A stretch of 64,000 nt of DNA from Gemmatimonas sp. GTDB taxonomy: Bacteria > Gemmatimonadota > Gemmatimonadetes > Gemmatimonadales > Gemmatimonadaceae. A model generated the notes under the pieces. The model searched no databases. It was not told where the DNA came from and saw only the letters and a list, made by a program, of their open reading frames with translations. A program made the translations under genes and the position numbers. How positions within the stretch are numbered: position 1 is the stretch's first letter; every line of letters starts with the position of its first letter. Below, in pieces: positions 52,496-52,840 of the stretch. The stretch spans positions 62,001 to 126,000 of the forward strand of contig JAAVWC010000011.1 of NCBI GenBank assembly GCA_023910675.1, given 5' to 3'.

Positions 52496-52610
52496 GCCCG
52501 TCGGGTCACCGTACACCCCCTTGGCGCGTTGCTTCGGGGCGGCCGGGCGCTGAAGCGCCGGCGTCGCCCCGAAGAGACGCGCGACGGGGGTGTACGGCGC
52601 CCCGACGGGC
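52496..52610. repeat. Palindromic element A (115 bp)
   Basis: The arms GCCCGTCGGG, CCGTACACCCCC, GCGCGT and CTTCGGGGCG on the left match their complements on the right in the same order, with only short mismatches between. The apex is GGCGCTGAAGCGCC (52546-52559). Its reverse complement is clearly similar to palindrome B (shared GCGCGTCTCT...GGGGCG and GTGT/GTAC-A/C-CCCCC blocks), so the two are copies of one family. Confidence 0.85.
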
Positions 52611-52612
52611 TG

Positions 52613-52652
52613 GCCCCGACCCCGACCCCGACCCCGACCCCGACCCCGACCC
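52613..52652. repeat. GACCCC hexanucleotide tandem repeat
   Basis: Six to seven copies of the hexamer CCCCGA/GACCCC lie between the two palindromes. It is a slippage-prone tract in non-coding DNA. A related shorter run lies at 52688-52713. Confidence 0.85.
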
Positions 52653-52729
52653 AGCCCCAAACCCGCGCGCGAACGCGCCGCGCCCGCGACCCGACCCCGG
52701 CCCCGACCCCGACTCGTGCGCGATGCGAG

Positions 52730-52840
52730 CCCCGGGGCGTCGGTGTCCCCCGCCGCGCGTCTCTGAGGGGGCGGCGCCGGCGCGATAGCGCACGGCCGCC
52801 CCCGAAGGAAAGCGCGAAGGGGGACACCGACGACCCGGGG
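52730..52840. repeat. Palindromic element B (111 bp)
   Basis: CCCCGGG and GTCGGTGTCCCCC at the left pair with GGGGGACACCGAC and CCCGGGG at the right. The inner GCGCG, GGGGGCGGC and apical GCGC-GATA-GCGC blocks also pair. The central blocks are homologous to palindrome A in reverse orientation. Confidence 0.85.

Follow-up and report, generated by a model that had tools for sequence, protein, structure and literature searches.

The window analysed here, a 64,000-nucleotide (64 kb) stretch of a Gemmatimonas genome (G000 below), carries two long palindromes beyond the terminator of pdhC. They lie where the first-pass annotation had placed them (L at 52493-52613 and R at 52729-52841) and stand far beyond chance; only four inverted repeats of such length and closeness occur in the whole window. 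Both are imperfect, L having arms of 49 nt each (52493-52541/52565-52613) that are 86% complementary and R arms of 47 nt each (52729-52775/52795-52841) that are 83% complementary. Folded as single-stranded DNA, L reaches −62.6 kcal/mol (z = −8.2) and R −60.2 kcal/mol (z = −9.2), with 0 of 200 shuffles as good in either case. The internal blocks that had been described as common to the two in inverted orientation were confirmed, with 76% identity over about 120 bp on opposite strands. The features of the site are as follows:

52417-52448, plus strand: pdhC terminator, a perfect 14-bp intrinsic and bidirectional terminator, separate from the element
52483-52498, plus strand: L outer edge motif (consensus GTGYGCGA[CG]ACGCC), where conservation stops
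52493-52613, plus strand: palindrome L, A-B orientation with the A arm outward
52532-52550, plus strand: L core arm A, CTTCGGGGCGGCCGGGCGC
52555-52574, plus strand: L core arm B, GCGCCGGCGTCGCCCCGAAG, in which GAAG replaces the usual TCAG (that is, this copy is symmetrised here)
52614-52728, no strand: L-R spacer, containing the tract of GACCCC hexamers (exact over 52614-52646)
52720-52733, minus strand: R inner edge motif, GGGGCTCGCATCGC (consensus GGGGCTGCATCG)
52729-52841, minus strand: palindrome R, A-B on the minus strand with the A arm outward
52763-52783, plus strand: R core arm B, CTGAGGGGGCGGCGCCGGCGC
52788-52807, minus strand: R core arm A, CTTCGGGGGCGGCCGTGCGC

The earlier description of this layout as unlike a terminator holds: an ordinary terminator is present separately at 52417-52448, and no T tract follows L or R, which therefore lack the GC-hairpin-plus-U-tract form. 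A different palindrome of 205 bp, with 101-nt arms that are 81% complementary, lies after another gene at 42928-43132 of the window.

Two other parts of the first-pass description fared less well. The GTTTGGGTCTTGG and CCCCGACCCAGCCCC segments said to enclose the palindromes do match (25 nt, 88%), but they are two stretches of one low-complexity GGTCNN/GACCCC repeat, arrays of which recur in many other places (genome-wide, 127 exact matches of 18 nt, against 0 for the reversed control), so that the nesting outside L and R is not specific. The GTTTGGGTC/GACCCAGCCCC outer pair and the GACCCC tract are a simple hexamer repeat independent of the palindromes; the tract varies among the three closest relatives and should be handled as a separate feature. 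The proposal that the element marks a boundary separating pdhC from lpdA is likewise unsupported, as in genus members that lack palindromes a similar large gene also follows pdhC. The pair is found at the pdhC site only in G000, G008, and G017 (the closest three genomes, 95 to 96% identity); in the other members compared the gap is shorter and leads to the similar large gene, G025 alone having a different gene in that position. Several further sites are also short gaps in palindrome-free species. The element does not account for the gene order after pdhC.

A repeat family of the genus Gemmatimonas

The palindromes are not unique. A search of the G000 genome with each of them found five more places with paired matches, and copies occur in this genome at 7 sites, 6 of which hold pairs. 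A covariance model built after alignment of eleven copies identified 12 confident palindromes and one weak one in G000, and 12 to 22 in the richest Gemmatimonas genomes, G000 included. G028 had 22 matches; G028, G017, and G008 have copy numbers similar to or higher than that of G000, and other genomes have fewer. Because G000 is an incomplete assembly and several relatives are fragmented, with some contigs stopping at palindromes, some apparent singletons may be undercounted pairs.

Model matches were found in 16 of 30 Gemmatimonas genomes and in none of 31 genomes from other genera. A pattern scan of GTDB (at least 80 loci, rescored with the model) gave nothing above about 25 bits outside the genus among the matches listed, where loci from outside Gemmatimonas that carried the core pattern exactly had chance-level model scores. 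Searches of plasmid and phage records with blastn gave no match, and viral contigs yielded one exact 20-base core match. The palindromes are thus a repeat family limited to the genus Gemmatimonas. No earlier description of it turned up among the open-access papers that were searched, and it is a newly listed family in a phylum whose repeats are sparsely annotated.

Just beyond the outer and the inner edge alike, conservation drops to the background level, which identifies a single palindrome of ~130 bp as the unit. Read with arm A first, the unit runs from an edge (GTGYGCGA[CG]ACGCC) through a variable outer stem and a middle stem into the core, then past a variable tip and back to a second edge (GGGGCTGCATCG). 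The eleven aligned copies give CTTCGGGGG[TC]GGCCGNGCGC as the consensus of core arm A, followed by a tip of variable length, and GCGCCGGCG[TC]C[AG]CCCCCTCAG as that of core arm B. The core carries conserved mismatches, with CTTC lying opposite TCAG in 46 of 64 scored copies; 8 of the 64, window L among them, are complementary at this position.

The usual arrangement is two units facing each other with the A arm outward. Across nine genomes, 57 of 93 matches have another match within 1 kb, and the neighbor order within that distance is plus-minus in 27 cases, minus-minus in 3, and minus-plus or plus-plus in none, a count inflated by orthologous sites. In the closed genome G028 alone, plus-minus begins all seven multi-copy sites. 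Sites are intergenic, and approximate gene calls class 31 of them as 17 tandem, 11 convergent, and 3 divergent.

Covariation of the arms

The compensatory change that the first-pass annotation proposed to look for by covariance modelling proved abundant in the core and in the outer arms. In the core, double changes that keep the pair number 123 cells versus 32 in shuffles, and pairing is 97.4% versus at most 66% when the arms are slid. The core alignment was itself fitted to the model, so an independent test on the free arms counts for more: with the 45 bases on each side outside the core, cognate arms average −61.1 kcal/mol and swapped arms −41.3 kcal/mol. The outer stems have no conserved sequence and differ among copies, yet keep their complementarity. 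At one orthologous site (C7R), GCCCCGACGGACGAGGGCCCCGG lies opposite CCGGGGCCCTCGTCCGTCGGGGC in G003 and GCCCCGAACGATTGAGGCCCCGG opposite CCGGGGCCTCAATCGTTCGGGGC in G028, the entire outer stem having been exchanged on both sides. When long flanked copies were folded as RNA, the stems came out overextended, and these folds were not used. Uniqueness in the genome together with a lack of compensatory change had been named beforehand as grounds for abandoning the case; what we found is a repeat family with abundant compensatory change.

Three processes could produce such double stem replacement: selection acting on the fold, substitution of one family member for another, and template switching, which reportedly creates and repairs the stems of hairpins (PMC8794818). 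The family offers a clean example from nature of long DNA hairpins that hold their shape while their stem sequence turns over completely at one genomic site, and it lets one ask whether compensatory change in hairpins reflects selection or template switching.

Under selection on the RNA fold, the palindromes might be a structured noncoding RNA or an mRNA 3′-end element acting in processing, stability, or antitermination. The strong fold, the compensatory changes, and the intergenic sites, mostly between tandem or convergent genes, would fit such a role. The window pair, however, lies 3′ of the pdhC terminator and so is probably outside the pdh mRNA, a pair with its A arms outward reads alike from both strands, the flanking genes are unrelated, and many genus members do without palindromes at the same sites. 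Rfam gave no match at threshold, only weak BjrC68 matches below it, on the terminator, and nothing in the evidence prefers RNA over DNA. We regard an RNA element as unlikely.

Mutation alone would require neither mobility nor recognition, quasi-palindromes being re-perfected by template switching. This process can make and maintain hairpins (PMC8794818), and some copies, such as window L, are indeed symmetrised from TCAG to GAAG. It cannot, however, explain why dozens of unrelated sites share one core, why the unit has defined edges, or why pairs have a fixed orientation, and most copies retain the asymmetric bases of the core. As a full account, which we judged very unlikely, mutation alone is refuted by the existence of the family; as a contributing process it is likely.

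Gain, loss, and movement

Two G028 loci 14 kb apart (L146 and L147) point to recent copying: their left units are 99 to 100% identical over ~167 bp and their right units ~95% identical over ~200 bp, with unrelated flanks and different spacers. This suggests, from sequence comparison, that the family has spread recently within one genome. Many sites are nevertheless common to species that are 80 to 90% identical, which indicates that movement is rare.

Loss can be followed more precisely. A pair present in G017 is absent from G000 at 31576-31735 of the window, where two remnants are found:

31576-31605, plus strand: probable scar of a lost palindrome L, with one outer arm and the inner motif remaining
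31711-31735, minus strand: probable scar of a lost palindrome R, with its junction at the 5-bp repeat CGGTC

The G000 junctions show 2-bp and 5-bp microhomologies, and one outer arm and the edge motifs are retained. This pattern matches hairpin deletion by slippage, so that G000 most likely lost the pair by microhomology deletions. The sites compared showed no target-site duplication or clean gain or empty site, the one precise comparison being this loss; the sequence met in empty-site comparisons after pdhC and close to parS in G028 was too diverged or filled with other palindromic repeats. No transposase was found for the element.

One candidate source of movement is the resident RAYT (Y1) transposase, of which the palindromes would be the REPs. 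G000 has one Y1_Tnp gene, and some palindromes adjoin AAAGGGGTCAGAGTC repeats. But the repeats that bound the RAYT gene, GGGGTCAGAGTCG, are of a separate family, the palindrome core was not found near the gene in G000, and no gene of this kind turned up in G028, which carries palindromes. We give the RAYT explanation very little credence. The single RAYT-type gene itself (L068 3575-4222; G000 C1:358350) has GGGGTCAGAGTCG on one side and GACTCTGACCCC on the other, a separate short palindromic repeat that also occurs at other intergenic sites. Another G000 interval (L308; C2:88300-90600) has, at about 490-1540, a tandem run of about eight palindromic repeats, each ~120 bp long, with a parS-like TTTCACGTGAAA site on either side; the matching interval of G028 holds a copy of the paired-palindrome family.

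Alternatively, the palindromes could be integron-attC-like recombination sites of a gene-cassette system, with genes captured between the hairpins. Palindromes do have genes between them at C7 (an additional redoxin copy) and in G028, the redoxin is inverted in G028 and G003, and integron integrases are present in the genus. The attC-like sites beside these integrases, however, are classical GCCTAAC...GTTAGGC sites unlike the palindromes, and the R″ RYYYAAC/R′ GTTRRRY box pair was absent from the palindrome loci tested. The units face each other in pairs instead of forming direct arrays. In G005 and G015 a homologue of ORF1 occupies the same place with no palindromes around it, which makes it a resident gene and not a captured one, and the small ORFs of the G028 locus had no Pfam match. 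Such a cassette system is highly improbable.

A G012 integrase beside a palindrome was considered as a link and rejected: the site has a palindrome in G000 and G017 too, and the G000 integrase is on another contig. Locus L194 (G012 C72) carries an integron integrase with a classical attC-like GCCTAAC...GTTAGGC site 3′ of intI, reversed relative to the usual layout.

The C7 locus (L294 of G000) holds two redoxin paralogues, at 533-1828 and 4239-4817, that are 61% identical, the upstream copy being ancestral. The second, which has a palindrome on either side, is missing at that position in palindrome-less species. Insertion of the gene together with the palindromes is possible; local duplication also explains the arrangement.

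Interpretation and likeness to known systems

We consider it probable that the pair after pdhC belongs, as a single copy, to a family of small nonautonomous mobile elements that is specific to the genus and has the ~130-bp palindrome as its unit. The unit would spread as, or via, a single-stranded DNA hairpin, with its asymmetric core recognised by a protein supplied elsewhere. Two facing units would be the form that is copied, as in REPINs, and template switching between the arms may account, at least in part, for the continued complementarity of the outer stems. For the host, a tolerated intergenic repeat is the default role. A bolder version, which we hold to be quite doubtful, is a new class of single-stranded DNA hairpin element with ~130-bp asymmetric hairpin ends facing each other, in which a structure-reading recombinase (neither RAYT nor IntI) would copy the pair and occasionally invert or enclose a gene between them, the outer stems serving as free "barcodes" whose two arms are rewritten simultaneously.

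The first-pass suggestions of a REP-type composite or a nonautonomous foldback element were in the right neighborhood and are partly supported. REPINs are inverted REP doublets linked to RAYTs (PMC3116915), and they resemble the present family as extragenic repeated palindromes with inverted doublets favored over singlets, a larger hairpin possible, and no autonomy (PMC3116915, PMC3733652). They differ in that the REP unit is 20 to 40 bp rather than ~130 bp. Here the spacing is about 150 to 800 bp with about 10 to 20 copies per genome, a GTAG or CGTC tag is not clearly seen (the inner edge, looked at for such a tag, is CTGCATCG in most copies and CTGCGTCG in some), and neither the G000 RAYT nor G028 provides a cognate RAYT flanked by the same repeat. 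Membership in REPs or REPINs fails on unit size and the missing cognate gene, but the likeness of layout stands.

As a short, nonautonomous, multicopy repeat with inverted structure, the family fits the description of MITEs. ERIC/IRU, the 127-bp intergenic repeats of enterobacteria (PMC2229807), are alike by description in size, intergenic setting, and inverted-repeat structure; they differ in their TA termini, which are absent here (the edges being GTGYGCGA.../GGGGCTGCATCG), in their target duplication, of which no instance was seen here, and in the facing pairs of the present family. YPAL/RU-2, a 168-bp palindromic element of Yersinia (PMC2229807), is similar in size, in its internal inverted repeats, and in targets beside dyad symmetry (here, beside a terminator), but differs in its target duplications, which were not seen here, and in lacking the pair layout. 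ERIC and YPAL are probably unrelated to the family in sequence. Integron attC sites share the long asymmetric hairpin, conserved unpaired bases, a variable tip, and genes sometimes lying between; the present units differ in being without R′/R″ boxes and inverted rather than direct, and the attC-like sites of the genus are different. By analogy, the best reading would be a large REPIN/ERIC/YPAL-like nonautonomous mobile palindrome, neither a terminator nor an integron attC, and we favor a way of working like that of REPINs, with facing doublets and single-stranded hairpins that would be read by a protein.
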